Below are positions 20,327 to 44,334 of a stretch of DNA of 64,000 bases, one piece after another (position 1 is the stretch's first letter; each line of letters starts with the position of its first letter). A program made the translations under genes and the position numbers. The stretch comes from Stackebrandtia albiflava (GTDB lineage Bacteria; Actinomycetota; Actinomycetes; Mycobacteriales; Micromonosporaceae), in contig NZ_VLLL01000006.1 of NCBI RefSeq assembly GCF_007994225.1, forward strand, positions 62,001 through 126,000, in the 5' to 3' direction. Below the pieces are notes generated by a model that worked only from the letters and a program-made list of their open reading frames with translations, was not told the DNA's origin and did not search any database.

Positions 20327-20433
20327 GGGGGCCGCCACTCCTCCTCCCCATGGCGTCGAGCCTATGGGCCGATGTGGGGGTGTGTCGAGGCCGAAGCGCG
20401 GGGGCTGTGGATAACCCGCCGGTTGTGGACGGA
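20327..20433 (+). repeat. Dispersed intergenic repeat, copy A
   Basis: The left end is GGGGGCCGCCACTCCTCC, followed by TCCCCATGGCGTCGAGCCTA; these 38 bases recur identically in copy C. About 40 bp further, two reverse-strand DnaA-box-like sites end the unit: TGTGGATAA (20406-20414) and TGTGGACGG (20425-20433). It is intergenic, 83 bp before an exact parS. Confidence 0.75.
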
Positions 20434-20516
20434 TCCGGGGTGGCCCCGGCGACATGCGGCGATGCGGCATGTGGATACGTCGACGCGCCGGGTCGCACGG
20501 CATCCGGACACGCCAA

Positions 20517-20532
20517 TGTTTCACGTGAAACA
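20517..20532. promoter_or_regulatory. parS centromere site, exact
   Basis: TGTTTCACGTGAAACA is a perfect copy of the bacterial parS palindrome, the loading site of the ParB clamp. It lies 86 bp upstream of the chosen parA start. Confidence 0.95.
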
Positions 20533-20618
20533 TCGCGGCCCACGGGTGTGCGAAGGTGTTAGCGGAAATCGACCTGGGGCATTGCGTCAAAGGGCCGCCA
20601 TGGCCGTACTCTTGCGGA

Positions 20619-21800
20619 GTGCGTGAGAACTGGGATGAAGGTGAAGTCAGTCGCGAGCGCATTCGAGAGGTGCTGGACTCCGCGACACGGCCCGATTTAG
20701 CTGCCGACGGTGACCGGCCTGGTAATGAGACGACTCATGGAGCACAGATGCGAGCTGACCACACATGGGAGACTTCGGGCGCCGTTTCACGTGCGATCAC
20801 GGCCGCGGCCGAAGCTACGGATCCCCAGTTTCCGCAACAGAAGCCGAATGTTCCACGTGAAACAGAGACCGAATGGCCGTCGCCCTGGGACGACGACCTA
20901 CCTCTCGCCCGTGAGGCGCAGCGCGCCGTCAAGGTGTTGAATCCCGGCGGCGGAGTGTCGATGCCCCGTCCCCGTCGCCGCCGCGTCCTGGGGATCGCGA
21001 ACCAGAAGGGCGGCGTCGGAAAGACGACCTCGGCCGTCAATCTCGCGGTGGCACTCGCACTCCACGGCAACCGCGTCATGGTGATCGACCTCGACCCGCA
21101 GGGCAACGCGTCCACCGGACTCGGTGTGGAGCACGGGGCCGGAACACCCTCCATCTACGAGGCACTCATCGAGGGCGTTCCGCTCGTCGAGGTGACCCAG
21201 GCGGTCGAGGGCATCCCGAACCTGGTGTGCGCTCCCGCGACGATCGACCTCGCCGGCGCGGAGGTGGAATTGGTGTCGCTCGTCGCGCGGGAGAACCGAC
21301 TGCAGCGCGCCATCGCGGGTTACCCGCACGAGATCGACTACATCCTGATCGACTGCCCGCCTTCGCTGGGCCTGCTCACCGTCAACGCGATGGTCGCCGC
21401 CGAGGAGGTGTTGATCCCGATCCAGTGTGAGTACTACGCCCTGGAGGGACTCGGACAGTTGCTCCGCAACATCGAGCTCGTCAAGGTGCACCTGAATCCC
21501 CGGCTTCAGGTGTCGACGATCCTGCTGACGATGTACGACAAGCGGACCAAGCTCGCCGATCAGGTCGAGCAGGAGGTGCGCAGTCACTTCGGTGACACCG
21601 TGTTGAAGGCGGTCGTGCCCCGTAGCGTCCGGGTGTCGGAGGCACCGGGATACGGGCAGTCCGTCATGACGTACGACCCGGGTTCCCGGGGAGCGACGAG
21701 TTACTTCGAGGCGGCCGAAGAGATCGCCTTGCGAGGCGCGGCAATGGGGGCATCGTTATGCGCAAGAAGGGTGGTCTCGGACGAGGACTGGCGGCACTGA
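20619..21800 (+). CDS. parA: Chromosome partitioning ATPase ParA (Soj)
   Basis: A P-loop ATPase that binds DNA nonspecifically and moves ParB-parS complexes. The core starts near residue 125 with LGIANQKGGVGKTTSAVNLA (deviant Walker A), then VIDLDPQGNASTGLG, DYILIDCPPSLGLLTVNAM and RSVRVSEAPGYGQS. The N-terminal extension of about 120 residues is low-complexity and embeds a parS-like site (NVPRETE). Start choice is uncertain: GTG 20619 has TACTCT 12 bp upstream, fitting a leaderless mRNA, while ATG 20748 would give a shorter form. The 3' end overlaps parB by 43 bp. Confidence 0.93.
   Translation: MRENWDEGEVSRERIREVLDSATRPDLAADGDRPGNETTHGAQMRADHTWETSGAVSRAITAAAEATDPQFPQQKPNVPRETETEWPSPWDDDLPLAREAQRAVKVLNPGGGVSMPRPRRRRVLGIANQKGGVGKTTSAVNLAVALALHGNRVMVIDLDPQGNASTGLGVEHGAGTPSIYEALIEGVPLVEVTQAVEGIPNLVCAPATIDLAGAEVELVSLVARENRLQRAIAGYPHEIDYILIDCPPSLGLLTVNAMVAAEEVLIPIQCEYYALEGLGQLLRNIELVKVHLNPRLQVSTILLTMYDKRTKLADQVEQEVRSHFGDTVLKAVVPRSVRVSEAPGYGQSVMTYDPGSRGATSYFEAAEEIALRGAAMGASLCARRVVSDEDWRH
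20849..20864. promoter_or_regulatory. parS-like site inside parA
   Basis: TGTTCCACGTGAAACA differs from exact parS at one base. It encodes part of N-V-P-R-E-T in the non-conserved N-terminal extension of ParA. Confidence 0.75.
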
Positions 21801-22840
21801 TTCCGCCGTCCCCGGCCGAGGATGTTTCACGTGAAACGGCGTCGGAGGACGAGTCGCTGCCGACGCCGCGGCCTTCCCAGGACGACATCGCCTTCACCGG
21901 CGAATCGGCGGAGGCACCCGATGTTCCACGTGAAACGACACCGGAACTTCTGCCCGTACCGGGCGCGAAATTCAAGTTGATCCCGCTCGATTCGCTCGCC
22001 GTCAACCCGAAGCAGCCCCGCGAGGACTTCGCCCCGGAGGAACTCGACGAGCTGAAGGTGTCGCTCGGCGAGGTCGGGATGCTGCAGCCGATCGCGGTGC
22101 GGCCCCTGCCGCCGAACACGGTGCGCGTGGTCAAGAACGAGGACGACGAGGACGTCGAACGGGTCTTCGAGTACGAACTCGTCATGGGGGAACGCCGGAC
22201 CCGTGCCGCGCGCGCCCTCGGTTGGGAGACCGTTCCCGCCATCGTCCGGGAGACCAAGGACGAGGACCTCCTCAAGGAGGCCCTGCTGGAGAACATCCAC
22301 CGGGTGCAGTTGAACCCGCTGGAGGAGGCCGCGGCATACCAACAGCTTCTCGAGGAGTTCGGCGCGACGCAGGAGGATCTGTCGAAGCGGATCGGGCGCA
22401 GCCGGTCGCAGATCTCGAACATGATCCGGTTGCTGAGTCTGCCCGCCGGGCTGCAGAAGCAGGTGGCCGCCGGTGTCCTCACTTTCGGGCACGCGCGTGC
22501 GCTGTTGGCGCTGCCGAACACCGATCGGCAGCACGCGGTGGCGAAGCGGATCGTTCAGGAGGGTCTCTCGGTCCGGACCACCGAGGAGGTCGTGCGCTTG
22601 GAGAACGGCGGCCGGATTCCGGACGGCGACCTGGCGCAGTCGGTGCCGGCGAAGAAGCGGGCCACCAAGATCCACTCGCCGGGGGTCACGGATCTCGCCG
22701 ATCGGCTCTCGGACCGGTTCGAGACGCGCGTGAAGGTCGCGTTGGGGCAGAAGAAGGGCAAGATCGTCATCGAGTTCGGCAGTATCGCCGATCTGGAGCG
22801 GATCGCGAAGAGCATGGGCCTGGACTCCCGCGAGAACTGA
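21758..22840 (+). CDS. parB: Chromosome partitioning protein ParB (Spo0J)
   Basis: A 360-residue CTP-dependent DNA clamp. It opens MRKKGGLGRGLAALIP, the ParA-stimulating N-terminal motif. The ParB/Srx domain has IPLDSLAVNPKQPREDF and the CTP-binding GERRTRAARALG; the HTH domain has ATQEDLSKRIGRSRSQISNM, which reads parS. The C-terminal part is a short dimerisation region. Two parS-like sites are encoded near residues 22-60 in the linker (DVSRETA, DVPRETT). It overlaps parA and is followed by two terminators. Confidence 0.97.
   Translation: MRKKGGLGRGLAALIPPSPAEDVSRETASEDESLPTPRPSQDDIAFTGESAEAPDVPRETTPELLPVPGAKFKLIPLDSLAVNPKQPREDFAPEELDELKVSLGEVGMLQPIAVRPLPPNTVRVVKNEDDEDVERVFEYELVMGERRTRAARALGWETVPAIVRETKDEDLLKEALLENIHRVQLNPLEEAAAYQQLLEEFGATQEDLSKRIGRSRSQISNMIRLLSLPAGLQKQVAAGVLTFGHARALLALPNTDRQHAVAKRIVQEGLSVRTTEEVVRLENGGRIPDGDLAQSVPAKKRATKIHSPGVTDLADRLSDRFETRVKVALGQKKGKIVIEFGSIADLERIAKSMGLDSREN
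21823..21838. promoter_or_regulatory. parS-like site inside parB (first)
   Basis: TGTTTCACGTGAAACG matches parS at 15 of 16 bases and encodes D-V-S-R-E-T near residue 25 of ParB. Confidence 0.8.
21922..21937. promoter_or_regulatory. parS-like site inside parB (second)
   Basis: TGTTCCACGTGAAACG matches parS at 14 of 16 bases and encodes D-V-P-R-E-T in the ParB linker, 99 bp after the first copy. Confidence 0.65.
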
Positions 22841-22854
22841 TCCCGGGAGTATTC

Positions 22855-22883
22855 ACCGGTCACCGGATTCTCCGGTGACCGGT
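22855..22883 (+). terminator. First terminator after parB
   Basis: A 13-bp stem ACCGGTCACCGGA / TCCGGTGACCGGT with a 3-nt loop, then TCTTCGT, begins 15 bp after the parB stop. Confidence 0.8.
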
Positions 22884-22929
22884 TCTTCGTGTCATCGGGT
22901 GGCCCGGATCGTCTCCGGACAGCACGAAC

Positions 22930-22957
22930 ACCGCCGAGGTCGTCGGCGGTTTTTTTG
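22930..22957 (+). terminator. Second, classical intrinsic terminator after parB
   Basis: Stem ACCGCCGA / TCGGCGGT with a 5-nt loop runs straight into seven further T residues. It is one of the few true U-tract terminators in the window. Confidence 0.88.
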
Positions 22958-23072
22958 TTTCACTCATTCGGTTGTCTGAGAACGTCGGTGTGGTCGACGG
23001 TCCGGCTCACGTGTCCGCATGTCTCCCCCGCTGGGCGACATGACCGACGTGGCGAACACCTGGAACGTGGAA

Positions 23073-23088
23073 TGTTTCACGTGAAACA
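23073..23088. promoter_or_regulatory. parS centromere site, exact, downstream of parB
   Basis: TGTTTCACGTGAAACA, identical to the site at 20517, so that parAB is bracketed by two exact sites 2.55 kb apart. Confidence 0.95.
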
Positions 23089-23438
23089 TCGCGTCGTGGG
23101 TGTGGAGCACCGACCGGAACGAGTGACGAGGTGGTCCGCGTCCCCGGGGTTCGGGCGGCGGTGCCACGCCGACCGGAGGGGCCGGTCGGGACCGGATCGG
23201 GGTGACGGTTCGGCCGACGACACGTGCGACCCGGTGGAGGCCGTGGGCCATCCAGAGCCACAGCGCCCACCAGGTCGATGGTGGGATCGGCCGGCCGGAC
23301 ATACATCGGTGTCTATCAGCACGGCGCCCGGTGTGGCGGGAGGCGCGCCGGAGGCCCACCGCCGGAAGCGACGCGCGTCATACCGGACTTTGAGAAAGCA
23401 TCTGGTGCCCGGGAGAACCATCGGGCACTGTTGTATCC
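23089..23438. other. Non-coding stretch between parS and an acetyltransferase
   Basis: No convincing gene, RNA or repeat was seen; frames here are Arg/Gly-rich without start signals. Confidence 0.4.
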
Positions 23439-23999
23439 GTGCATTCCGCTACAGCGGTCGGCCCGGACGCGGCTGCCGAAACAATCGAAGTCCTGGTGGA
23501 TCCACCGGTGACCACGGCCCTGGTGGACGAACTCACCGAGCTGTGGGCGAAGGTGACGAACTCGGGTGGATCGGTGGGCTTCGTCGCCCCGGTCACCGAG
23601 GAGGGGGTTCGACCGCACACCGTGGCCATCCTCTCCCGGGTCATCGACGGCAGCGACACCTTGGTCGCCTTGACGAAGGGAGGACAGATCGTCGCATGGT
23701 GCGTTCTCGCCGCCAACGACAGTCCGCCGCGTCAGGGTTGGCGGAACGTCCGTCACGTGCAGGTGGATCCGGACAGTCAGGGCGGCGGGCTCGGCGGTCG
23801 GTTGCTCCAGGCGGTCGAGGCGGTCGCGCGAGGCGTCCTGGGGTTGGAGGCGTTGAGCCTGAAGGTACGGACCGGTACGGGTGCCGAGGAGTTCTACCGC
23901 CGGCACGGCTTCGTCGAGGTCGGCCGGTTGCCCGGTGCCGTCAAGGTCGCCGAGGACGACTACCGGGACGACATCATCATGTGGCGGCGGTTGCGGTAG
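23439..23999 (+). CDS. GNAT family N-acetyltransferase
   Basis: A 186-residue acetyltransferase. After about 45 residues the domain shows HTVAILSRVIDGSDTLVALTKGGQIVAWCVL, the acetyl-CoA binding segment VQVDPDSQGGGLGGRLLQAVE, and the closing AEEFYRRHGFVEVGRLPGAV. Substrate unknown. The start is GTG 23439, and a TTGTAT (23431-23436) just upstream could be part of its promoter; the exact start is uncertain because no ribosome-binding site is visible. It stands alone downstream of parB. Confidence 0.82.
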   Translation: MHSATAVGPDAAAETIEVLVDPPVTTALVDELTELWAKVTNSGGSVGFVAPVTEEGVRPHTVAILSRVIDGSDTLVALTKGGQIVAWCVLAANDSPPRQGWRNVRHVQVDPDSQGGGLGGRLLQAVEAVARGVLGLEALSLKVRTGTGAEEFYRRHGFVEVGRLPGAVKVAEDDYRDDIIMWRRLR

Positions 24000-24067
24000 C
24001 CGCGCGGCGGATGATCTCCGGCCGCCGGTCGGTCCGGGTGCCGTCAGGTATGCGGTAACTTCTATCT

Positions 24068-24616
24068 GTGGCAGGCAACCCCCGATCTCAGCAGCTTCCG
24101 GATTTCGTGACCTGGCCCGCTTTTCCGTTCGAGGGCGACCTTCGGTTGAAGCCGATCGCCCCCGCATCGGACGTGGAGCCGCCCCGGCGTGGCGAGGAGC
24201 CCGGTGAGTGCGTGTCGTGTCTCACCGGGGACGACGGCTATCTGTGGACGAACGACCGTTGGCGGGTGAAGACCCCGCCGAAGCCTTCGGGGTTGCCGGT
24301 CGTCGTCATCCTGGAGACGCGCGCGCATCTCGATCTCGGCGACCTCTCGACGATGCACGCCGCGGAGTTGGGTGTCTTGACGGTGCGTCTCGAACGGGCG
24401 ATCCGGTCGCTCGACTCGGTCGCGCGGGTGCACGTCAATCGCTGGGGTGACGGTTCGGCCCACCTCCAGTTGTGGTTCCTGGCCCGCCCGAAGGGCCACC
24501 TGCAGCTTCGGGGGCCGTTCATGACGATGTGGGACGACATCCTGCCGCCGACCGAGGAGTCGCAGTGGCGCAGCGACCTGGAGTACCTCCGGGCGTGGCT
24601 GGACGACACCGACTGA
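24068..24616 (+). CDS. HIT-like (AP4A hydrolase/GalT fold) protein
   Basis: A 182-residue protein conserved in layout with actinobacterial HIT-like proteins: a CVSC pair near residue 49, GYLWTNDRWRVKTPPKPSG, VVVILETRAHLDLGDLS, a long helix, and HVNRWGDGSAHLQLWFLARP at the place of the histidine triad. Only one His remains in the triad position, so nucleotide hydrolase activity is doubtful. GTG 24068 has TAACTT 12 bp upstream and no ribosome-binding site, consistent with leaderless translation. Family assignment is from pattern and not firm. Confidence 0.6.
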   Translation: MAGNPRSQQLPDFVTWPAFPFEGDLRLKPIAPASDVEPPRRGEEPGECVSCLTGDDGYLWTNDRWRVKTPPKPSGLPVVVILETRAHLDLGDLSTMHAAELGVLTVRLERAIRSLDSVARVHVNRWGDGSAHLQLWFLARPKGHLQLRGPFMTMWDDILPPTEESQWRSDLEYLRAWLDDTD

Positions 24617-24626
24617 ACTGGGCGGG

Positions 24627-24731
24627 TTTTCCACAATGCCCCGGTTATCCACAACCTTCGCGGACAGCGCTGGACGGGCGCCTCGAATCGGTTCTACGCT
24701 CAAGCCATGGGGTGGAGGATGGCGGCCCCCC
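24627..24731 (-). repeat. Dispersed intergenic repeat, copy B
   Basis: Read on the minus strand, it starts GGGGGGCCGCCATCCTCC, continues CCCCATGGC and TGAGCGTA, and ends with the box pair TGTGGATAA (24645-24653) and TGTGGAAAA (24627-24635), 18 bp apart. It differs from copies A and C by a few indels and substitutions. It lies 10 bp after the HIT-like gene. Confidence 0.7.
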
Positions 24732-24834
24732 GGCTCGTCGGCGGGTGCCGGGGTGGGCGTGGGCGGGTCGTCGTCCTGGGGCACACGGCTCGGTGGTGGT
24801 TGTGGAGCCGGGGTGGAAACCGGTGGGAATGCGA

Positions 24835-24865
24835 AAACCGGAACCGATCACGTCGGTTCCGGTTT
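24835..24865 (-). terminator. Terminator of tRNA-Phe
   Basis: A perfect 13-bp stem AAACCGGAACCGA / TCGGTTCCGGTTT with a 5-nt loop lies 6 bp past the tRNA on the minus strand and ends in TTTT there. Confidence 0.85.
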
Positions 24866-24870
24866 CTCGG

Positions 24871-24944
24871 TGGCCAGGGCCGGGGTCGAACCGGCGACCT
24901 CTCACTTTTCAGGCGAGCGCTCGTACCAACTGAGCTACCTGGCC
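24871..24944 (-). tRNA. tRNA-Phe (GAA), CCA not encoded
   Basis: A 74-nt cloverleaf: acceptor GGCCAGG/CCTGGCC, D arm AGCTCAGTTGGTACGAGC, anticodon loop CTGAAAA with anticodon GAA, T arm GCCGG-TTCGACC-CCGGC. After the discriminator A the genome reads CCG, so the CCA end must be added by enzyme. Confidence 0.96.
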
Positions 24945-25076
24945 GGGATAGAGCCATGCATACGTTACCGCATGAGTGGGCGAGGCCGCATCCGGGATAC
25001 CGGTGGCGGCGACAGCGGGCGTCCGTGACCGCGGACGTCACGATTCGGTCCCGCACGGCTCGGTGTGGCGGTCGGG

Positions 25077-25781
25077 TCAGGCCGGGGGCCGGGTGAGCCG
25101 GAAGGTGACGTACCGGACGGGGTACCCGTGCCGGTCCTCGGTGAGTTCGGCGACGGGGGCGGCCGACAACGGCGACGCCTCGACGAGTTCCATCAGGTAG
25201 TCGAGATCCCCGCTGGAACCGAAGAACAGCAACACCCTGCCGTCGTCGGTGAGGTGCCGGTCCACCTGTTCCATGAAGCCGGTGAGCGTCCGGTAGTCCC
25301 GGTCGGTGACGGCGCGTTCGAAGGTGTCGCGCGGCGCGAACCATCGGAACGGCGGGTCGAACACGATCAGGTCGAAACGTCCGTCGATTCCGGTGAAGCA
25401 GTCGCCCTCCCGGACCGTCACACGGTCGGCGACCCCGTTGCGGGCGGCGTTCGCGCGGGCGGTCGCCACCGCCGACGGGTTCACGTCGACGGCCAGTACC
25501 TCGGCGGCGGTGCCGGCTGCCAGGACGGCGTTGACGCCGGAGCCGGTTCCCATGTCGAGTACCCGGTCACCGGGCCGGACCTCGGCCAGGACCGCCTCGC
25601 CCAGGACGTGGGACACCGGGGTGATCGGCATGACGTCGGGCGGGACGGTGAAGGTGCGCCCCAGGTACTCGGTGGTCTCACCGGTTCGCTCGGCGGCACG
25701 GTCTCGACCGGCTTCGTGCCACCGCAGTACCCATTCGGCGCGTTCCGGTGACATCCGGGGCTGGTGTGTGGAGCCGGTCAT
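25077..25781 (-). CDS. SAM-dependent methyltransferase, MTS (PrmC/RsmC-like) domain
   Basis: A 234-residue protein with the SAM motifs VLDMGTGSGVNAVLAA, VLAVDVNPSAVATARANAA and DLIVFDPPF, the last equivalent to the N/D-PP-Y/F motif of methyltransferases acting on planar amino groups. The N-terminus (TPVSHVLGEAVLAEV) resembles small-domain methyltransferases that modify rRNA bases or glutamine side chains. The target is unknown. ATG 25781 is used; ATG 25754 is an alternative. It stands alone between two tRNA genes. Confidence 0.8.
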   Translation of the reverse strand: MTGSTHQPRMSPERAEWVLRWHEAGRDRAAERTGETTEYLGRTFTVPPDVMPITPVSHVLGEAVLAEVRPGDRVLDMGTGSGVNAVLAAGTAAEVLAVDVNPSAVATARANAARNGVADRVTVREGDCFTGIDGRFDLIVFDPPFRWFAPRDTFERAVTDRDYRTLTGFMEQVDRHLTDDGRVLLFFGSSGDLDYLMELVEASPLSAAPVAELTEDRHGYPVRYVTFRLTRPPA

Positions 25782-26003
25782 GGTGGAAGCGTAGGAGACG
25801 GTTCGGTTGCGCGACAGCGGTTATCGCCGCGCGGCACCGGCGTCCGTTCGCGGCCCGGGTGGTTCGCGCCGTTCGCGACGGCCGGTGCCGTGGCCTTATA
25901 TCCCCGGGTGCCCGTGCCGGGCGGGCGGATGTGTTTCCCCGGCCGTGGTCGGGGGATGAACGGTGTCCGAACGATCCGCGAACAATCGGGGTGCGGAGAC
26001 GAC

Positions 26004-26047
26004 GAACCCCGGGCCTGAGCCGATGTCGGACTCTGGACCCGGGGTTC
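26004..26047 (-). terminator. Terminator of tRNA-Leu
   Basis: GAACCCCGGG (26004-26013) pairs with CCCGGGGTTC (26038-26047). The inner 24 nt are partly unpaired. It lies just past the tRNA 3' end on the minus strand. Confidence 0.6.
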
Positions 26048-26049
26048 CA

Positions 26050-26135
26050 TGGTGCGGAAGGAGGGAGTTGAACCCTCACGCCCTTTCGGGCACACGGACC
26101 TGAACCGTGCGCGTCTGCCATTCCGCCACTTCCGC
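26050..26135 (-). tRNA. tRNA-Leu (CAG), CCA encoded
   Basis: A class II tRNA of 86 nt: acceptor GCGGAAG/CTTCCGC, D arm TGGCGGAATGGCAGACGC, anticodon loop TTCAGGT with anticodon CAG, a long variable arm (TGCCCGAAAGGGCG) and T loop GGTTCAACTCC. The CCA end is encoded. Confidence 0.96.
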
Positions 26136-26310
26136 GAGTGACCGGACGCCTCGAACGAGGCGAATGGAACTCTAACACAGGCGTCGTCGCGCCCGAAACC
26201 GGCTTACCGGGTGGGGGTGCGGGCGGGGCCGCGTCGGCTGGCGGGAATTGCGGCGACACTCTAGGCTTACTTAGTCCTGGAATGACCGGCTACGGCTGCT
26301 GAAATCACGT

Positions 26311-26339
26311 GACCGCTCAGCGCGCGACGCTGAGCGGTC
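26311..26339 (+). promoter_or_regulatory. Strong hairpin in the leader region of fhaA
   Basis: GACCGCTCAGCG and CGCTGAGCGGTC form a perfect 12-bp stem with loop CGCGA, about 80 bp upstream of fhaA. A six-codon open frame (M-T-G-Y-G-C, 26282-26302) lies just before it. It could be a leader attenuator, or the terminator of an unannotated small transcript. I see no larger gene in 26136-26420. Confidence 0.45.
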
Positions 26340-26420
26340 TCACGCGGCCCGATACCATCGTTGACGGGCACACAAATGCCACCGTGGTGTTCAATGGTGT
26401 GATTGGCAAGGAGGAATCCG

Positions 26421-27152
26421 GTGACTGTGCTGGGACGCTTCGAGAAGCGGCTGGAGGGCCTGTTTGAGGGTGCCTTCGCGAAGATATTCAAGGGTGTAGT
26501 CCACCCGGTGGAGATCGCCGGCGCCATGCAGCGGGAGGCCGAGTCGCACAAGGCCATTCTTGCCGGTGGCCGGATTCTGGTACCGAATCGTTACGTGATC
26601 GACCTGTCGCCGCCGGACCACGACAGGCTCGCCCCCTACGCGGCGGCGTTGGCGCAGGAGTTGGCGCAGTCGCAGGCGGAGCACATTGGGGAGCACGGTT
26701 GGACCGTGTACGGCGACGTGATCGTGGAGATCGAGCGCGGCGAGGGCCTGGACACGGGGATGTTCCGGGTGATCGCGGAGGTGGCCGCTCAACAGGACCA
26801 GCACGCGCAGCACGGCTACGGCCACGGCGGTGGTTACGACGGTTCGCATCCGGGTGGCCAGCCCGCGCCGCCGACGGGTCCCCGCCTGGTGTCCGGTGAC
26901 GGCAGGCAGTACGCCATCACGATGGGTTCGACCACGATCGGCCGTGGTGAGCAGGCGCAGATCAGGCTGCCCGACGTGGGTATCTCCCGGGTTCACGTGC
27001 GCATCGACTTCGACGGCGGCCAGGTGATCGTGACCGACCTCGGCTCGACCAACGGCACGCTCGTCAACGGGCAGCGGATCTCGACGATCGCCCTCCAGCC
27101 GGGTGACATGATTCAGCTCGGGACGACTTCGCTGACGCTGCAAGCCAACTGA
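26421..27152 (+). CDS. fhaA: FhaA-type protein (DUF3662 plus FHA domain)
   Basis: A 243-residue regulator of cell-wall synthesis. The N-terminal DUF3662 domain reads LGRFEKRLEGLFEGAFAKIF and PVEIAGAMQREAESHKAI. A short His/Gly-rich linker follows, then a C-terminal FHA domain with IGRGEQAQIRLPDVGISRVH and STNGTLVNGQ, the phosphothreonine-binding loops. Mycobacterial FhaA binds phosphorylated MviN. GTG 26421 follows AAGGAGG at 26408-26414; a TTG at 26403 would place that site inside the gene. First gene of the fhaA-pknB operon. Confidence 0.95.
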   Translation: MTVLGRFEKRLEGLFEGAFAKIFKGVVHPVEIAGAMQREAESHKAILAGGRILVPNRYVIDLSPPDHDRLAPYAAALAQELAQSQAEHIGEHGWTVYGDVIVEIERGEGLDTGMFRVIAEVAAQQDQHAQHGYGHGGGYDGSHPGGQPAPPTGPRLVSGDGRQYAITMGSTTIGRGEQAQIRLPDVGISRVHVRIDFDGGQVIVTDLGSTNGTLVNGQRISTIALQPGDMIQLGTTSLTLQAN

Positions 27153-27209
27153 GCGCGCGGCCGATGTCGGGGCCAGGCCCAATGATTCCTGACCTTTGGA
27201 GGACTGTCC

Positions 27210-27689
27210 GTGCCTGAGTTGGTCTTCACGGTCGCCCGGTTCGGCTTGCTGATCCTGTTGTGGGTGTTCGTCTTCGTGGTGGCGCGTGCGATCCGGCGGG
27301 ACGTGTTCGCGCGCCCGGGTGGCGGCGTCGCGGTGGCCTCGCGTGGTGCCGCCGCGACGCCGCCGCCGCGTGGCGCACCGGGCGCGCCCGCCCCGCAGGC
27401 GGCCAGGTACCTGATCGTGACCGAGGGGGATCGCAAGGGCACCCGGTTGTCGTTGGGGGGTTCCACGATCCGGATCGGCCGTTCCCCGGATTCCACTCTG
27501 GTCATCAACGACGACTTCGCGTCGGCGAGGCACGCGCAGTTGATGCCGCGCGGCGGGCAGTGGCTCGTGGAAGACTCCGGATCGACCAACGGAACGTATC
27601 TGGGACGCGCTAAGGTCACCGGACCAACTCCAGTCCCCCTAGGGGTGCCGATCCGTATCGGCCGAACCAGCATTGAGCTTCGCCCATGA
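27210..27689 (+). CDS. fhaB: FhaB/FipA-type membrane FHA protein
   Basis: A 159-residue protein with one N-terminal helix (FGLLILLWVFVFVVARAI), an Ala/Pro/Gly linker and a C-terminal FHA domain: IRIGRSPDSTLVINDDFASARHAQ with GSTNGTYLGR. In mycobacteria FhaB (FipA) links FtsZ and FtsQ during division and is read by PstP and PknA partners. TTTGGAGGA lies 8 bp before GTG 27210. The stop overlaps the pstP start by 4 bp. Confidence 0.95.
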   Translation: MPELVFTVARFGLLILLWVFVFVVARAIRRDVFARPGGGVAVASRGAAATPPPRGAPGAPAPQAARYLIVTEGDRKGTRLSLGGSTIRIGRSPDSTLVINDDFASARHAQLMPRGGQWLVEDSGSTNGTYLGRAKVTGPTPVPLGVPIRIGRTSIELRP

Positions 27690-29071: not shown

Positions 29072-29083
29072 CCGGGAGGCCGG

Positions 29084-35405: not shown

Positions 35406-35417
35406 CGTGACGACGAG

Positions 35418-35445
35418 AACGGCCGCCGGTCACCCGGCGGCCGTT
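35418..35445. terminator. Bidirectional terminator between pknB and fahA
   Basis: AACGGCCGCCGG (35418-35429) pairs with CCGGCGGCCGTT (35434-35445), loop TCAC. It lies between convergent genes: 12 bp after the pknB stop and 18 bp after the fahA stop on the other strand. Confidence 0.8.
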
Positions 35446-35463
35446 TCGCGTATGGGGGCCGGA

Positions 35464-36681
<1,218 letters not shown>

Positions 36682-36684
36682 TTC

Positions 36685-37497: not shown

Positions 37498-37654
37498 CGT
37501 TCCGAGAATAGTTGACGGCGGTCCCGGTATACCCGTGCGAACCGGACGGACCCGTTCCGTGAAGTGACCGGGCCGGTCAGGGGTCGCGTTAGGCTGGCCA
37601 CACCACCTACGCTGTCGTGACACCGGCAGCCGACCGCGCGTCAAGGAGTCGATG

Positions 37655-38839
37655 ATGCCCTACTACCGTGCCGTCGGGGAGATCCCCCAGAAGCGACACA
37701 CCCAGTTCCGGCAGCCGGACGGCAGCCTGTACGCCGAGGAGCTGATGGGGCAGGAGGGTTTCTCCTCGGACTCGTCGCTCCTGTACCACCGGCACCTGCC
37801 CACCGCGATCTCCGACAGTCTCGCGTACGACCCCGGCACCGTCGAACCGGTCACCAACCACCCGTTGAAACCCCGGCACTTCCGCACCCACAAGCTCGGC
37901 GGCGGCGGCGACGCCGTCCTGGGCCGCCGCCACCTGCTGGCCAACGCCGACTGCCGGATCTCGTACGCGGTGGCGGACCGGCCGTCCCCGTTGTACCGCA
38001 ACGCGATCGGCGACGAGTGCGTCTACGTGGAGGCGGGAACCGCGACGGTGGAGACCTCCTTCGGTGCGTTGGACGTGTCGCCCGGTGACTACCTGATCGT
38101 GCCGATGTCCACCATCCACCGGATCGTGCCGACCGGGGACGAACCGTTGCGGACGCTCGTGGTGGAGTCCAGCGGGCACATCACCCCGCCGAAGCGTTAC
38201 CTGTCGGTGCGGGGCCAGTTCCTCGAACACTCTCCGTACTGCGAACGCGACATCCGCGGGCCGGAACAGCCGCTCCTGGTGGAGGGTGAGGACGTCGAGG
38301 TGTACGTGCAGCACCGCGGCCGCGGCGCACGCACCGTCTGGACGAAGTTCGTGTACCCGCACCACCCGTTCGACGTGGTCGGCTGGGACGGCCACTTCTA
38401 CCCGTGGGTGCTGTCGATCCACGACTTCGAACCGATCACCGGGCGGATCCACCAGCCGCCGCCGGTGCACCAGACGTTCCAGGGACCGAACTTCGTGATC
38501 TGCTCGTTCGTGCCGCGCAAGGTCGACTACCACCCGGACGCGATCCCGGTGCCGTACAACCACCACAACGTCGACTCCGACGAGGTGCTGTTCTACACCG
38601 GCGGGAACTACGAGGCCCGCAAGGGGTCCGGCATCGAGCAGGGATCGATCTCGCTGCACCCGTCCGGTTTCACGCACGGGCCGCAGCCCGGAGCGGCGGA
38701 ACGCGCGATAGGCATCGACTACTTCGACGAGCTGGCCGTCATGGTCGACACGTTCCGGCCGCTGGAACTGTGCGACGCGGCGTTGGAGTGCGAGGACACC
38801 GGTTACGCCTGGACGTGGAACCGCAGTCCCGAGGCGTGA
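37655..38839 (+). CDS. hmgA: Homogentisate 1,2-dioxygenase
   Basis: A 394-residue Fe(II) ring-cleaving dioxygenase turning homogentisate into maleylacetoacetate. Family blocks: MPYYRAVGEIPQKRHTQFR, ISYAVADRPSPLYRNAIGDE, YNHHNVDSDEVLFYTGG with the ligand Glu, and HPSGFTHGPQPG with a ligand His. AAGGAG is 6 bp before ATG 37655 and only 3 bp before ATG 37652, so the second Met is preferred. It is divergent from the unknown gene and fahA, 157 bp apart. Confidence 0.96.
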   Translation: MPYYRAVGEIPQKRHTQFRQPDGSLYAEELMGQEGFSSDSSLLYHRHLPTAISDSLAYDPGTVEPVTNHPLKPRHFRTHKLGGGGDAVLGRRHLLANADCRISYAVADRPSPLYRNAIGDECVYVEAGTATVETSFGALDVSPGDYLIVPMSTIHRIVPTGDEPLRTLVVESSGHITPPKRYLSVRGQFLEHSPYCERDIRGPEQPLLVEGEDVEVYVQHRGRGARTVWTKFVYPHHPFDVVGWDGHFYPWVLSIHDFEPITGRIHQPPPVHQTFQGPNFVICSFVPRKVDYHPDAIPVPYNHHNVDSDEVLFYTGGNYEARKGSGIEQGSISLHPSGFTHGPQPGAAERAIGIDYFDELAVMVDTFRPLELCDAALECEDTGYAWTWNRSPEA

Positions 38840-38843
38840 ACGG

Positions 38844-38880
38844 CGAACCGCCCCCCGGCCGTGGGCCGGAGGGCGGTTCG
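38844..38880 (+). terminator. Terminator after hmgA
   Basis: CGAACCGCCC pairs with GGGCGGTTCG, with an inner CCGGCC-GTG-GGCCGG stem, 5 bp after the hmgA stop. Confidence 0.8.
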
Positions 38881-39017
38881 GGTCGCTGTCCTGTGCACTG
38901 AAGGCTCAGGAGCCGCCCGGGGTGATCACCCGGCCGGTTCCCAGCGTCCTCGTCGAAGCAGTGGCACCGCGCGCCGTCCCACGAGTGGACCGGACACGCG
39001 GATCGACCACGGATGTC

Positions 39018-39398
39018 CTAATCGAACAGTTCTTCGAAGAAGCTCTTGCGGCGCTTCCTCGGGTGGCCGTGGCCGTATCCGTGGCCGTGCTTGTAGTAGG
39101 GCTGCCCGTGCCCGTGCTTGTAGTACGGCTGTTGGCCGTGCCCGTACGGGGACGCCGGCGGCGGGTAGTGGCCCGGCGCGACCGGCGGCGGCGGGGCCTG
39201 CGGCGCGGGAGCGGCCGGAGGCCGGGGAGCCGACTGCGGCGCCCCACCGGACTGGAACTTGGCGTCGGCGTCGATCAGGTGCTCCAGCTCACCCCTGTCG
39301 AGGAAGATCCCCCGGCATTCGGTGCACTGGTCGATCGTGACGCCGTTGCGCTCGAACTGGCGCATCTTCGCGTGGCACTTGGGACAGTTCATCTCCAT
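39018..39398 (-). CDS. zf-TFIIB zinc-ribbon protein with a His/Tyr/Gly-rich tail
   Basis: A 126-residue protein. The N-terminal zinc ribbon has two Cys pairs, CPKC and CTEC, 16 residues apart, followed by GIFLDRGELEHLID, the zf-TFIIB hallmark. A Pro/Ala linker leads to a tandem repeat (YYKHGHGQP, then YYKHGHGYGHGHP) rich in His, a likely metal-binding or disordered segment. The end RKRRKSFFEELFD is a basic then acidic tail. ATG 39398 is preferred to TTG 39407. The role of the family is not established. Confidence 0.82.
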   Translation of the reverse strand: MEMNCPKCHAKMRQFERNGVTIDQCTECRGIFLDRGELEHLIDADAKFQSGGAPQSAPRPPAAPAPQAPPPPVAPGHYPPPASPYGHGQQPYYKHGHGQPYYKHGHGYGHGHPRKRRKSFFEELFD

Positions 39399-39455
39399 AC
39401 TTTCCAACGGTACCTGGCAGGTGCACGCATACGCATATGGGTGACGGTTGACACG

Positions 39456-40691
39456 TCAGCGTCGCGCCTGGGCACCGTTCTCCACGCGCCACGGCGAGCG
39501 TGGCGACTCCGCCTCCCGGAGCACCCACCACCAGATTCCGAACACCGCCGGGTACAGCAGGTAGCCGAACCGGCTCGCCGGCAGCAGGCACATCGCGACC
39601 GTGAGCCCCACCGCGCACACCGCCGAGGCGTGGTGCGCGGAGGTGACCGGGGTGCGCCACAGGTACACCGCGAACCCCGCCGCCGCCGACGCCAACAGCA
39701 TCATCGCGATGATCCCGCCGCCGGGGACGTGCTCGGCGATGAGATGACCCGGCAGCGGCGACGCGGCGGTCGACTTCACGACGCCCTGCCCGAGCGGGTA
39801 TCCGATCACGTTGTCGTAGAAGGCGCCGGCGTCGGCCACCAGGGCCGGCACCATGGCCAGCACCGGGATCCCGGCGGCGGCGGGCGCGAACCGGCGCAGT
39901 TCCCCGCGCCGCCAGGCCAGGACCGCCACGACCACCAGGACCGGCCACGCGAACAGTTTCAACGCCGCGGCGACACCGATGGCGACACCCGCGAGCACCG
40001 GCCTGCCCACCGCCATGGCCGCCAACGCCAGTACGCACGCCGCCACCACGGGCAGGTCGTCGCCGCCGGTGGCGAGCGTCAACGCGCACACCGGCACCAC
40101 GAACACCGCCTGGATCGCGCGGACCGTCGGGTTGACCGGCATACCGGCGTCCCGCAGCAGCCGGACCGCCCACCACACCGCCGCGACCGTCACCAGCGCG
40201 AAGTAGATCCGGGCGTCGGTGAACCACGCCTCACCGAACCAGGCGCGCGGCAGGCCGAACAACGCCATGCCGGGCTGGTACGGGTCGTAGCCCAGCAGCG
40301 GCACCGGCAGCGCCGAGATCACCTCGTCGGTGAGATAGGGGGTTCCGGTCTCCCACAGCCGGACCCCGGAGTCCTCGACGACCAGCACCTCGTCCTGCGC
40401 CCGGCCGGCAACGCCCTGGGCGCGTTGCGCGACCTCCGCCAGCAGGGGCATGCCCGTGACGGCGGCACCGGTACCGACGGCGACCCACAGCCGCAACCGC
40501 ACCGGTGTGCCGTAACGGTTCCACAGCAGCACGGACACGATCGTCGCGGGCACGTACCCGCCCAGGACGACGGCCCCCCAGAACCGGTGCGCGGGCAGGG
40601 TGGACCACACCGCGGTGTACACCGCGAACGCGGCCGACAGCCCGTACAGGAGTGCGTCGAGGTAGAGCGGGTCGCGCCGCAGTCGCTCCAT
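39456..40691 (-). CDS. Multi-TM glycosyltransferase 87-like (DUF2029) protein
   Basis: A 411-residue membrane protein with about 10-11 helices. A soluble loop after TM3-4 (VLVVEDSGVRLWETGTPYLTD, GYDPYQPGM) resembles the first extracytoplasmic loop of polyprenyl-phosphate-mannose-dependent mannosyltransferases; VAAALKLFAWPVLVVVAVLAW has the Lys common in the family. Substrate unknown. It lies 14 bp after the DUF5926 gene and is probably transcribed with it. Confidence 0.7.
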   Translation of the reverse strand: MERLRRDPLYLDALLYGLSAAFAVYTAVWSTLPAHRFWGAVVLGGYVPATIVSVLLWNRYGTPVRLRLWVAVGTGAAVTGMPLLAEVAQRAQGVAGRAQDEVLVVEDSGVRLWETGTPYLTDEVISALPVPLLGYDPYQPGMALFGLPRAWFGEAWFTDARIYFALVTVAAVWWAVRLLRDAGMPVNPTVRAIQAVFVVPVCALTLATGGDDLPVVAACVLALAAMAVGRPVLAGVAIGVAAALKLFAWPVLVVVAVLAWRRGELRRFAPAAAGIPVLAMVPALVADAGAFYDNVIGYPLGQGVVKSTAASPLPGHLIAEHVPGGGIIAMMLLASAAAGFAVYLWRTPVTSAHHASAVCAVGLTVAMCLLPASRFGYLLYPAVFGIWWWVLREAESPRSPWRVENGAQARR

Positions 40692-40705
40692 TGTGTCCCC
40701 GTGCC

Positions 40706-41590
40706 TCAGCGGAGGGTGAGCTGGCGGCCGACCAGGCCGTCACGGGCCCGGCGCTGCGCGCTCGTCAACGGGGCCGTCTCGGTGAGCGCCTCCGCGTAAC
40801 GCTTCATGAACTCCGCGACCGGTGACTCGCACTCCTCGGCGGTGACGTCGGGAGCCAGGTCCCACACCGGAACCAGCAGGCCGTGCGCGCGGAACATGCC
40901 CGCGAACTTCGACGCCTCGGTCAGTTTGAGCCGGTCGTCGCCGCGGAGCCGCGCGAGGGCGTCCAGGGCGGAGTCCTCGTCCTGCGGCATCACGATCCGC
41001 ACGTGTACGTGTTCCGGTGTGCGGCACCAGTAACCGGCGTCGGCGGAGGCGAGCGGACTCGTCGGGTAGATCGACGCGTTGGCGCGTTCCATGCTCGCGC
41101 CGATCTGCGGGTTCTCGGTGTCGGCGTCCGGCGCGAGCCAGTAGTCGAAGGTGTCGTGGACGGTGACCTCGAGCGGGGCGTCCGACAGCAGGTCCTGCAT
41201 GCGCGGGCCGGGACCCGGCCGCGCGGGGACGGCGACGGGCCGGCCCGGGGCGGCCGCGAGCGCGGCCAGCAGGGACGCGGCGATGTCGCGGCTGACGTCA
41301 CCGGACTGGAACTGCCGCTGCATCGCGACGAAGACCTTGTCGTCGGTGCGGCTCATCGCGGGCCACGCCAACGGGAGCACGGTCGTCAGAACGACCTCGC
41401 GGTCGCCGACCTGCTCGGCGAACTCCGGTTTGAGGCTCAGTGGCGCGGTCGCGGCGGGGAGCAGTTCCCGCATGGCGACCCAGTCGCCCTCGCCGGGAAG
41501 GCCCTCGAAGGGCCGGGCCACGAATACGTCGCGGATCTTGGTCTTGCGCGGTGTCGCGCCGCTGGCGCTGTGTTTGCGTCGCTTACTCAC
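40706..41590 (-). CDS. DUF5926 family protein
   Basis: A 294-residue actinobacterial protein of unknown role. It begins with a basic stretch (SKRRKHSASGATPRKTK), then FVARPFEGLPGEGDWVAMRELLPAATAPL, TVLPLAWPAMSR and TPEHVHVRIVMPQDEDSALDAL. GTG 41590 is the start used because the basic leader is typical of the family. It lies 11 bp after the stop of the ATPase-domain gene upstream on the same strand. Confidence 0.8.
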   Translation of the reverse strand: MSKRRKHSASGATPRKTKIRDVFVARPFEGLPGEGDWVAMRELLPAATAPLSLKPEFAEQVGDREVVLTTVLPLAWPAMSRTDDKVFVAMQRQFQSGDVSRDIAASLLAALAAAPGRPVAVPARPGPGPRMQDLLSDAPLEVTVHDTFDYWLAPDADTENPQIGASMERANASIYPTSPLASADAGYWCRTPEHVHVRIVMPQDEDSALDALARLRGDDRLKLTEASKFAGMFRAHGLLVPVWDLAPDVTAEECESPVAEFMKRYAEALTETAPLTSAQRRARDGLVGRQLTLR

Positions 41591-41601
41591 AGTGTGACAG
41601 C

Positions 41602-42027
41602 CTACGGGTGAACCGCTTGCTGTGCTCCGGGTGTCAGCCTCGCCCACACCGTTCGCCCGTGTGACTCGTCCTGCACACCCCAGTTGGAGGCGAGGGCGCT
41701 GACGATGAGCAGGCCCCTGCCGTCGGGTGCGGTGGTGTCGAGGGGGCGGGGCCGGGGAAGGGTCGCGCCGCCGCCGTCGGTGACGGAGAACTCCACCTCG
41801 CCGTCGGCCACCCGGCAGCTCACGGAGAGGTCGCCGTCGGGCAGCGGGGTGGCGTGGCGCACCGCGTTACAGATGAGTTCGGTGGCGACGGCGTGTAGAT
41901 CGGCGAGCCGGTGCGGGTACAGCGAACCGACCACCTCTGCCAGCCAGCGACGGATGGTGGCGGCGCTGCGGGCATGGTGGGGCACCCTGGTCTGCCATGA
42001 GGTGGGGCTGTTCACCACCGTCCGCAT
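41602..42027 (-). CDS. HATPase_c (RsbW-like) regulatory ATP-binding protein
   Basis: A 141-residue stand-alone GHKL ATPase domain: the N box is LHAVATELICNAVRHA, the G1 region VTDGGG, and the G2 region GRGLLIVSALASNWG. Such proteins act as anti-sigma factors or kinases in partner switching, or as companions of Streptomyces-type regulators. No anti-anti-sigma or sigma gene is adjacent. ATG 42027 has GGAGG 11 bp upstream; the frame is open 17 codons further. Confidence 0.82.
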   Translation of the reverse strand: MRTVVNSPTSWQTRVPHHARSAATIRRWLAEVVGSLYPHRLADLHAVATELICNAVRHATPLPDGDLSVSCRVADGEVEFSVTDGGGATLPRPRPLDTTAPDGRGLLIVSALASNWGVQDESHGRTVWARLTPGAQQAVHP

Positions 42028-42273
42028 GTACTCAAGCCTCCACGTGACGCGTGTGTGATACGGCACGGGCGTGAACACGAGCCCCGTTGGGCCGACCCGT
42101 CCATGAGGGGTCCACCGAACAGTGTGCCGATCCGTCTAGAAGATACCGCTAGATCGCCGAAACGGCACACGTCCGGTCCGCGCGGCCGGCCGTGAGGTGA
42201 CGGGATTGTGGCCGCGTTATGGATTCCGGGTGCCTCGTCACGCCTGGCGTGACGACCCGTCGTGTCGGGGAGA

Positions 42274-43005
42274 TCACGGTGTGCGACCCAGTGTGGCCAA
42301 CGCCATAGCGGGATCGTCGGTGATGACGGCGTCGGCGCCGAGGCCGGCGAGGAACTCGACGTCCTCGGGCCGGTTGGCGGTCCACACGTACACCTTGCGG
42401 CCCGCGTCGTGGGCCTGCCGGATCAGGTCCGGCTTGGACCGGACCAGCGACAGCCGGGGTCCCACGATCCCGGCGGCCTCGGGCACTGTCCCGAGCGGGA
42501 ACTCGTAGAGCCACACCAGCGGTACGGCGGGGTCCATGGTGCGGTACCGGCTGACGGCCGCCCGCGCGAAGGACATGACGGTGACGTCCAGGCCGGGGAA
42601 GTCGGCCAGCGCCCGGTGCAGTGCCCGTTCCACCTCCGCGCCGAACCGGGATGGGTGCTTGGTCTCGACCAGCATCCGCACCCTGCGTGGGGCTTCGTTG
42701 ATCAGCCGCAGCAACTGCACGAACGGCAGGATCTGGTGTTGTTCACCGGCGACCGGTTCGCGCCTGCCGGAGAAGTCGAGCTTCTGGAGTTCGGCGAGTG
42801 TCTGACCCGAGATGGCGCCCCTGCCGTTGCTGGTGCGGTCGACCGTGCGGTCGTGGTGGCACACCAGGTGCCCGTCCCGGGTCAGCCGGACGTCGCATTC
42901 GACGGCGTCCGCGCCCACCTCGACGGCCCGGACGTACGCGGGAAGGGTCTGCTCGGGGAGATCGACGTTGGCCCCACGGTGCGCCACGATCATGGGTTCC
43001 GGCAT
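42274..43005 (-). CDS. Glycerophosphodiester phosphodiesterase
   Basis: A 243-residue GDPD-family TIM barrel that hydrolyses glycerophosphodiesters to glycerol 3-phosphate. The signature region is IVAHRGANVDLPEQTLPAY, then GADAVECDVRLTRDGHLVCHHD, both holding the metal and general acid/base residues, and KVYVWTANRPEDV near the end. There is no signal peptide, so it acts in the cytoplasm. ATG 43005 has TATGCT 13 bp upstream and appears leaderless; ATG 43017 overlaps that box. Confidence 0.9.
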   Translation of the reverse strand: MPEPMIVAHRGANVDLPEQTLPAYVRAVEVGADAVECDVRLTRDGHLVCHHDRTVDRTSNGRGAISGQTLAELQKLDFSGRREPVAGEQHQILPFVQLLRLINEAPRRVRMLVETKHPSRFGAEVERALHRALADFPGLDVTVMSFARAAVSRYRTMDPAVPLVWLYEFPLGTVPEAAGIVGPRLSLVRSKPDLIRQAHDAGRKVYVWTANRPEDVEFLAGLGADAVITDDPAMALATLGRTP

Positions 43006-43072
43006 GCCGCGAAGCATAGTCAACCCACCTGCGTCGGGCCGGGTGGCGGTGTCGGTGGCAGCATTGCCCTCC

Positions 43073-43855
43073 GTGACGCCTGAAGAGATCTCCCTACTGT
43101 TGCACCGGGTCGCGGACGGTACCGCCTCGGTGACCGAGGCCGCCGCCGCGTTGACGGAGGGCGTCTTCGCGGGCGGACCGGGATACGCCGACCTCGGTTT
43201 CGCCAAAGTGGACACTCACCGTCCGTTGCGGACGGGTGAACCCGAGACGGTGTTCGGCGACGGTAAGACCCCCGAGCAGTTGGTGGCGATAACGGAACGC
43301 CTGCTCGCGGCACGACCCGGCGGCGCGGTGCTGGCCACCCGGTTGCGGCCGGAGGGCCTGGCGGCGTTGCGGAGCGGGTTCGCGCCCGTCGAGACCGACG
43401 AGTCGGGCCGCACCGCGCTCGTCGGCACCCCGCCACCGGCGCGGGGCACGGTCGCGGTGGTGTCGGCGGGGACGTCGGACCAGCCGGTCGCCGGTGAGGT
43501 GGTGTTGACCGCGCGCGCCCACGGGCTCGGTGTCGTACCGGTGCCCGACGTGGGGGTCGCCGGACTGCACCGGGTGCTGCGGGCCCGGCCCGCGTTGGCG
43601 GGGGCCGACTGCGTGGTCGTGGTCGCCGGCATGGACGGCGCGCTGCCGTCGGTCGTCGGTGGACTCGTGCCGGTGCCGGTGGTGGCGGTACCGACGTCGG
43701 TGGGTTACGGCGCGGCGTTCGGTGGCCTGGCGGCGCTGTTGACGATGCTGAACTCGTGCGCGCCGGGCGTCACGGTCGTCAACATCGACAACGGTTTCGG
43801 GGCGGCCGTCGCGGCGGCCCGCATCGTGCGCGCGGGTGACCGGCGGGAGGCGTGA
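43073..43855 (+). CDS. larB: Nickel pincer cofactor biosynthesis protein LarB
   Basis: A 260-residue enzyme that carboxylates and hydrolyses nicotinic acid adenine dinucleotide to pyridinium-3,5-biscarboxylic acid mononucleotide, the first step to the nickel-pincer cofactor. The N-terminal part carries [23 protein letters not shown]; the C-terminal PurE-like domain has [28 protein letters not shown] and [23 protein letters not shown] 43073 is the first start before the conserved part. larC is 2.1 kb downstream on the same strand. Confidence 0.95.
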
Positions 43856-43872
43856 GGGACCCGAGAAGGGGA

Positions 43873-43904
43873 ACGCGCGTGCCCGGATCACCGGGCACGC
43901 GCGT
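43873..43904. terminator. Bidirectional terminator between larB and a small gene
   Basis: A perfect 14-bp stem ACGCGCGTGCCCGG / CCGGGCACGCGCGT, loop ATCA, between the larB stop and the end of the small minus-strand gene. Confidence 0.82.
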
Positions 43905-43924
43905 CTGGACTGGGTGAACGGGGC

Positions 43925-44053
43925 TCAGTGACCGGCCGCCACGGGTTCGCGCTCCTCGGAGCTGCGGCGGGGCTGCGTGGGCCGCGCGGCGGGCGAGGTC
44001 TTGTCGGCCCGGGCGATGCGGTCACGGCGGTGTCGTCCGATGTACTTGGCCAT
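43925..44053 (-). CDS. Small basic protein of 42 residues
   Basis: This frame is short but has a near-perfect ribosome-binding site, AAGGAGGAG, 3-4 bp before ATG 44053. The product starts MAKYIGRHRRDRIARADKTS, continues with Pro/Arg-rich residues and ends PVAAGH. It has 9 Arg and 2 Lys, no Cys and no hydrophobic segment, so it is probably cytosolic and may bind nucleic acid or be disordered. A bidirectional terminator lies just beyond the stop. I do not recognise a family. Confidence 0.65.
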   Translation of the reverse strand: MAKYIGRHRRDRIARADKTSPAARPTQPRRSSEEREPVAAGH

Positions 44054-44226
44054 GTCTCCTCCTTGTTCATGCGCAGATTACCCACGGGGTACGACATTCA
44101 ACCCCCAACAGATCGAACACAGTGGATGAATGGTCGGTGGCCGACCGTGACATGTCCTGACCAGGACCTTCGGGGCGCCATGACGGGGCTCACGATATGG
44201 CGGTCACCACGGCGCCTCCCCGGAGT

Positions 44227-44334
44227 GGGGGGCCGCCACTCCTCCTCCCCATGGCGTCGAGCCTAGGAGCGGCGCGCCCGGGATGTCCAACGGGGACGCG
44301 GCGGGCTGTGGACAACCGGGTGGTTGTGGAAAAC
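44227..44334 (+). repeat. Dispersed intergenic repeat, copy C
   Basis: It starts GGGGGGCCGCCACTCCTCC, then TCCCCATGGCGTCGAGCCTA identical to copy A, and ends with TGTGGACAA (44307-44315) and TGTGGAAAA (44325-44333), 18 bp apart. The rest of 44054-44379 holds no gene that I can support. Confidence 0.75.

Follow-up and report, generated by a model that had tools for sequence, protein, structure and literature searches.

The locus examined here raises the question of why an intergenic element carrying a pair of DnaA-box-like sites should recur along the Stackebrandtia albiflava chromosome. Three copies, A, B and C, were described in a first-pass annotation of a 64,000-nucleotide stretch (the window; positions 62001–126000 of contig C2 in the 5.55-Mb host genome, G000), and were proposed there to titrate DnaA, to act in chromosome organisation or to be mobile. 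Comparison with four other Stackebrandtia genomes (G001, G002, G003 and G004, of which G002 is Candidatus Stackebrandtia excrementipullorum) points to another answer. Read on the opposite strand, each copy is laid out like a promoter ending at a G-rich head, the head is predicted to fold into a stem-capped G-quadruplex (G4), and the same pair of boxes stands before DNA-uptake genes. Our preferred reading, to which we assign a probability of about 0.55, is that the copies would be non-coding members of a competence-type regulon, with a product that carries the stem-capped G4 at its 5′ end.

Promoter-like anatomy and the G-rich head

Inspection of the window sequence found copies A, B and C where they had been placed, all three outside called genes (the gene calls being home-made). 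Two matches to the 30-mer CCACTCCTCCTCCCCATGGCGTCGAGCCTA are present in the window, as against none in 100 shuffles. The architecture and the likeness to DnaA boxes described earlier hold, but the promoter-like organisation of the other strand, which ends in a G-quadruplex-type head, had been missed. On that strand the unit runs outer box, inner box, 41 bp, a TAnnnT hexamer, 7–11 nt and the head. The boxes are TTnTCCACA-like, with 12 bp between the TCCACA cores, and the head, with consensus GGGGnGGAGGnn(n)GGnGG(a)CCC, lies at the predicted RNA 5′ end. The cores start 18 bp apart in A (20406/20424), B (24630/24648) and C (44307/44325); the spacing given earlier was correct for B and C and wrong for A, for which 19 bp had been reported. 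The parts of the three copies, and of a fourth locus regarded earlier as a split copy, are as follows.

20424–20433, minus strand: outer box of copy A (TCCGTCCACA)
20406–20414, minus strand: inner box of copy A (TTATCCACA), 18 bp from the outer box
20384–20389, minus strand: putative -35-like hexamer CTCGAC of copy A, 19 bp before the -10
20359–20364, minus strand: putative -10-like TAGGCT of copy A, 41 bp after the inner box
20327–20349, minus strand: G-rich head of copy A (GGGGAGGAGGAGTGGCGGCCCCC), predicted to form a GGGG:CCCC stem closing a two-quartet G4
24627–24635, plus strand: outer box of copy B (TTTTCCACA)
24645–24653, plus strand: inner box of copy B (TTATCCACA)
24670–24675, plus strand: putative -35-like CTGGAC of copy B
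24695–24700, plus strand: putative -10-like TACGCT of copy B
24709–24730, plus strand: G-rich head of copy B (GGGGTGGAGGATGGCGGCCCCC)
44325–44333, minus strand: outer box of copy C (TTTTCCACA)
44307–44315, minus strand: inner box of copy C (TTGTCCACA)
44285–44290, minus strand: putative -35-like TTGGAC of copy C
44260–44265, minus strand: putative -10-like TAGGCT of copy C
44228–44250, minus strand: G-rich head of copy C (GGGGAGGAGGAGTGGCGGCCCCC)
50854–50882, plus strand: headless box pair, followed by an ordinary-looking promoter and a 101-aa open reading frame (ORF; ATG at 50947)

The last of these does contain a box pair, but it has no G-rich head and the promoter behind it looks ordinary; its ORF (region 50854–51250) has no Pfam match. 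The window also holds dnaA, a DnaA-box-rich region (14240–16593) and rsmG-parA. Dense TCCACA boxes flank dnaA on both sides within that region, which is likely to be oriC, and a parS-like TTTCACGTGAAA adjoins copy A at 20519–20530.

The expectation of a genome-wide element was borne out by a search of the whole of G000, in which 67 heads were found. An exact box pair lies upstream of 63 of these, and at one further head the pair has a single mismatch. Across five genomes, 87 copies bear a pair; their boxes are spaced by 18 bp (72 copies), 17 bp (13) or 19 bp (2), the pattern having admitted 17–19 only, and in 81 of the 87 the distance from inner box to -10 is 39–43 bp. Conservation in the G000 box-pair set further marks a CTGGAC-like -35 lying 19 bp before the -10. 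The head patterns impose TAnnnT, GGAGG and the G runs, as the box counts do TCCACA; TAnnnT was nevertheless present in all 14 of the headed box-pair matches printed from a head-free search. In the 36 G000 copies with identical heads, the 41 nt preceding the -10 average 42% pairwise identity, as against 35% for shuffled partners, the best pair reaching 83%. A fixed distance spanned by mostly free sequence suggests promoter logic.

Heads without boxes mostly bear TTAAG/TTCAG repeats at about 11 bp. The arrangement TTAAG-N7-TCAG-N11-TAnnnT was found at 27 sites in five genomes (reversed control, 1), and a head follows every one of the 27. Direct repeats at about 11-bp spacing beside a -10 are, we presume, similar to activator sites of the OmpR/PhoB type.

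The pattern of conservation within the head is also informative. In none of 62 distinct species-haplotypes is either single separator a G; both are always A, C or T (62/62 each). One loop is 2 or 3 nt long, and heads of G001, G003 and G004 may have an extra A before CCC. When folded by ViennaRNA with G4 terms, all 108 distinct head-plus-8-nt sequences (19 distinct cores) gave a two-quartet G4, closed in 100 of them by a 3–4-bp stem in which the GGGG end pairs with the CCC(C) end, compared with a G4 in 238 of 2160 composition shuffles (11%). The mean folding energy was -17.1 kcal/mol with the G4 and -9.2 without it, and the G4 near the start was kept in 98 of 116 cases when a transcript of about 80 nt was folded. 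A stem-capped G4 would explain why the G runs are conserved and the separators free, and why the loop length varies and the extra A is optional.

Other interpretations of the head and its surroundings were rejected. For a structured RNA downstream, mean energies from +8 onward differed from those of single mononucleotide shuffles by no more than about 1 kcal/mol, and there was no Rfam match. A small ORF is suggested by an ATG or GTG before GGGG in most copies, but this is missing from several heads of G001, G004, G002 and G000, and the AGG of the head is never swapped for a synonymous codon. A Shine–Dalgarno sequence with its start was dismissed because GGAGG touches any start codon or lies only a few bases from it, and a DNA-uptake sequence because 1–67 copies per genome are too few. 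An Rfam search of the window returned three tRNAs only and no curated-family match for the element; a search of five element loci at E up to 0.5 also gave no match.

Headless box pairs and DNA-uptake genes

Searches for TCCACA-N12-TCCACA gave 58 matches in G000 and 34 in G001, against 4 and 0 for the respective controls. For each locus judged, the gene considered was the ORF that scored best on the strand of the boxes within about 300 bp. Among the headless Stackebrandtia loci judged (in G000, G001, G002 and G004), a gene of uptake or recombination type lies downstream in 14 of 18, as follows.

SSB gene: four loci (L002, L213, L216, L219)
DUF4192 gene: four loci (L007, L202, L215, L218)
SLBB protein, ComEA-type: L211 (SLBB and HHH) and L220 (SLBB only, cut by the locus end)
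CpaE homologue TIGR03815: L208 and L221 (NCBI product name, septum site-determining protein Ssd)
M23 peptidase: two loci (L053, L212)

The stricter pattern TTnTCCACA-N9-TTnTCCACA is present in 30 of 110 genomes of the order, 29 of them besides G000, with a reversed control of 0 in all. One locus per genome was judged, or 30 of the 105 places listed, and exclusion of the one in the host's own genome (L230) left 29. At 20 of these 29 foreign loci the judged ORF encodes an uptake or recombination protein, supported in every case by a Pfam or NCBIfam match. The judged ORFs include the following; those of the last line are not among the 20.

ComEA-type (SLBB plus HHH): 5
RecA: 3 (L227, L229, L238)
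CpaE homologue: 3
UPF0102/YraN: 3
SAF, with RcpC just under the cut-off: 2
DUF4244 pilin-like: 2
SSB: 1
DUF4192: 1
HNH/DUF222 proteins: 3 (L223, HNH only; L231; L234)

The box pair is thus a probable marker of a DNA-uptake regulon in the order, and on sequence grounds its place before uptake genes is the strongest clue to how the element may be controlled: if the uptake genes are driven by the same pair, the copies would be non-coding members of a competence-type regulon. The binding protein could be either DnaA or another with a similar site. The recA loci suggest that recA may fall within the same regulon in the three genomes concerned. DUF4192 genes repeatedly follow a box pair (at L248 as well as at the four Stackebrandtia loci), and we regard the family as a candidate new competence-linked protein family, as we do the HNH/DUF222 proteins. 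At L211 (G001:C1:4196684–4196761) five boxes stand in a row at 18-bp steps before the ComEA-type gene.

The natural-transformation set of Micrococcus luteus comprises comEA/EC and Tad/Flp pilus genes (PMC12849477, PMC8467076), the same kinds of gene that are found here behind headless box pairs; in the parts of those papers available to us no regulatory DNA motif is named, and the competence regulon of that organism was called unknown in 2026 (PMC12849477). In the excerpts seen of the literature on Stackebrandtia and DnaA, DUF4192, competence motifs, DnaA boxes with competence, Streptomyces DnaA-box clusters and stem-G4 RNAs, neither the element nor a competence role for the box pair is described.

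Distribution, genomic setting and history

With the sequence CTCCTCCnCCCCATGGC and up to two mismatches, 50 matches were obtained in G000 against 18 for the reversed pattern; 44 had at most one mismatch, and the six with two looked unrelated. The head-plus-(-10) pattern gave 67, 14, 19, 0 and 12 matches in G000 to G004, respectively (reversed control, 0), and without the CCC requirement 67, 23, 19, 1 and 16, plus four in a further genome, G417, whose four heads are identical to those of Herbihabitans rhizosphaerae. In 74 further genomes the CCC-free pattern appeared in two, with one chance-like match each, and its reversed control matched once over all 80 genomes. The first head form, searched in 397 genomes of the order including two Stackebrandtia, was found only in those two and in G417. 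In a search of named genomes with the full pattern including boxes, only Candidatus S. excrementipullorum and Herbihabitans were among the matches listed, a list that is incomplete in that it leaves out G000, G001 and G004, which carry the pattern. One exact full pattern had no match in viral contigs, and searches of phages and plasmids with one copy each gave none. Promoter-plus-head units are confined to two genera within the genomes searched, and the box pair itself is widespread.

Gene contexts were derived with a home-made codon-usage caller, by which 8 of 116 elements had no called downstream gene and four lay inside a called gene. An opposing gene is found downstream of 73 of the remaining 108, and in the other 35 the downstream gene is on the same strand and at least 75 bp away. 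From this orientation pattern, the product would be either a short or an antisense RNA, or transcription as such.

In G000 and G001 the copies lie preferentially towards oriC; in G004 the tendency is not significant. Expressed as distance to dnaA over half the chromosome, the mean is 0.24 in G001 (n = 23, 20 in the ori half, Kolmogorov–Smirnov p = 8e-5) and 0.35 in G004 (n = 16, 11 in the ori half, p = 0.09). In G000, contig C1, placed in the terminus half, has 5 of the 67 heads and 37% of the genome (p = 2e-8), the contigs having been placed from three markers on C1, one on C2 and one on C4. Polar sites of the FtsK type were rejected, since by hand count 12 of 23 promoters in G001 and 12 of 16 in G004 run along replication, with no clear polarity.

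The 36 identical G000 heads (of 67) agree over 36 nt, even at positions where other head types differ. The copy at rsmG-parA is retained in G000, G001 and G002 with differing head type and upstream sites, and the G004 stretch with rsmG and parA has no head even when one mismatch is allowed. Similar neighbours were found for 21 locus pairs, and in six of these a neighbour on the same side and strand is at least 70% identical. Together these observations suggest old positions with recent homogenisation or spread of the heads, for which gene conversion may be responsible.

Competing explanations and a proposed mechanism

DnaA titration or chromosome control, with the promoter features incidental, is unlikely to be the explanation. 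Sites such as datA, DARS and DnaA-box clusters are non-coding and carry DnaA-box-like sequences outside oriC, as the element does, and part of the earlier proposal stands. TTnTCCACA is found in 44 outer and 41 inner boxes of the 63 G000 pairs, the rest deviating at the first two bases; this 9-mer is present 166 times in G000 against 53 for its reverse, many of those listed lying within these elements; the boxes resemble those adjoining dnaA in the window; and the ori bias of G000 and G001 fits. However, the same pair precedes protein genes of one pathway across the order, which argues against datA-type titration as the main purpose of the element. The head, rather than the boxes, is the most invariant part, some heads have no box pair at all, and titration does not need a fixed 41 bp to the -10. 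Instead of a dense cluster without promoter function, there are usually two boxes about 18 bp apart inside a promoter geometry. Two other DnaA-box clusters of G000, outside the window, have five boxes partly 21 bp apart (L280, C2:284517–284678) and six boxes partly as inverted pairs (L281, C2:570209–570373), and look more like true DnaA-cluster loci than these elements do. A role as a non-autonomous mobile element, similar to a miniature inverted-repeat transposable element, is very unlikely. Copies are numerous, mostly intergenic, uneven in number between species and present in a distant genus; four Herbihabitans copies are, by eye, similar in the spacer too, as is the 83% G000 pair. Most G000 copies are nonetheless unlike over their full length, few decayed heads were seen, some positions are conserved between species and the phage, plasmid and viral-contig searches described above were negative; identical heads beside spacers of such low identity make a simple mobile element improbable. 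We give as little credence to ordinary promoters or leaders of neighbouring genes, for although the 35 same-strand genes would suit them and two elements precede the ssb and DUF4192 promoters, most copies face an opposing gene and the same-strand genes begin at least 75 bp off.

A transcription-opened, recombinogenic G4 like that of pilE, in which the promoter merely melts the head and the G4 promotes gene conversion, is unlikely. In Neisseria gonorrhoeae the promoter of a cis-acting small RNA is set so that transcription starts at a G4-forming sequence (PMC3547852). The element likewise has a predicted promoter abutting a predicted G4 former whose G-rich strand is the non-template one, 36 of 67 heads identical beside 41 nt of 42% identity are what head-only conversion would leave, and head type at rsmG-parA differs between species. 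However, pilE is one locus with a known recombination role (PMC3547852), whereas the element is present in dozens of copies, has a two-quartet G4 closed by a stem and shares its upstream sites with DNA-uptake genes. Neither a variable gene nor donor cassettes came to notice next to the copies, although no search was aimed at these, and the identity of the heads may reflect selection or recent spread, as the 83% spacer pair illustrates.

The reading as non-coding regulon members is favoured by a specific promoter site shared with DNA-uptake genes in both sets of loci. The pneumococcal csRNAs, sibling small RNAs in several copies with a common 5′ part, are tied to competence control; the copies here are far more numerous, only 20–25 nt are conserved and there is no clear common downstream structure. 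Several observations weigh against this reading. Four of the 18 Stackebrandtia headless loci (L045, L206, L209, L217) and 9 of the 29 foreign ones (three HNH/DUF222, six unclear) have no obvious uptake gene, these gene-context counts stand without control loci judged alike, and, by hand count, about 18 other listed pairs away from known heads, four of them in G003, lie outside the 18 judged. Upstream sites were classed for 12 of 16 G004 heads, 14 of 23 G001 heads and none of G003, and an exact box pair stands at only one of the 12 G004 heads, so that box control is not universal. The opposing gene ends within 100 bp in 45 of 73 cases, and any RNA would then be very short or antisense. As regards the fold, it depends on the simple and crude G4 energy model of ViennaRNA, two-quartet G4s can be weak, 8 of 108 head sequences lack a clear stem form, and independent cores are few (19). 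The stem is invariant and so offers no covariation in its favour. The A of GGAGG does not vary, although nothing requires a loop base to be constant, GGACTCC is the sequence in one G004 head, and a folding check found no clear conserved structure in the downstream RNA.

On the regulon reading, each copy would be a short transcription unit running from the boxes to the G-rich end. The two direct boxes 18 bp apart would be bound by an activator (DnaA, or a dedicated protein that recognises a DnaA-like site), which would bring RNA polymerase to a sigma-A-type promoter 41 bp on; in part of the relatives, direct repeats of about 11 bp (TTAAG/TTCAG) would replace or join the boxes. The transcript would have no conserved ORF, and its first 20–25 nt may form the GGGG:CCCC stem around a two-quartet G-quadruplex. 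The sequence itself shows the anatomy, the spacings, the copy numbers and the shared motif, and the fold is an in silico prediction; that the units are transcribed and under competence control, and that the fold has a role, we infer. The head would be the working part, whether in the RNA or in the non-template DNA strand that transcription opens, and the downstream sequence would be free. It is conceivable, though distinctly unlikely, that the copies form a competence-wired family of self-homogenising transcribed G-quadruplex sites, in which induction of the uptake genes would cause transcription at dozens of ori-proximal loci. Brief transcription would there expose the stem-capped G4 and mark or initiate recombination, so that heads sweep by short-tract gene conversion while promoters stay.

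In many genera the 18-bp box pair offers a specific site, open to experiment, in front of uptake genes. If the regulon reading is correct, the G4-headed units would constitute a numerous non-coding arm of such a regulon; they would also be a naturally occurring family of bacterial RNAs whose predicted 5′ end is a stem-capped quadruplex.

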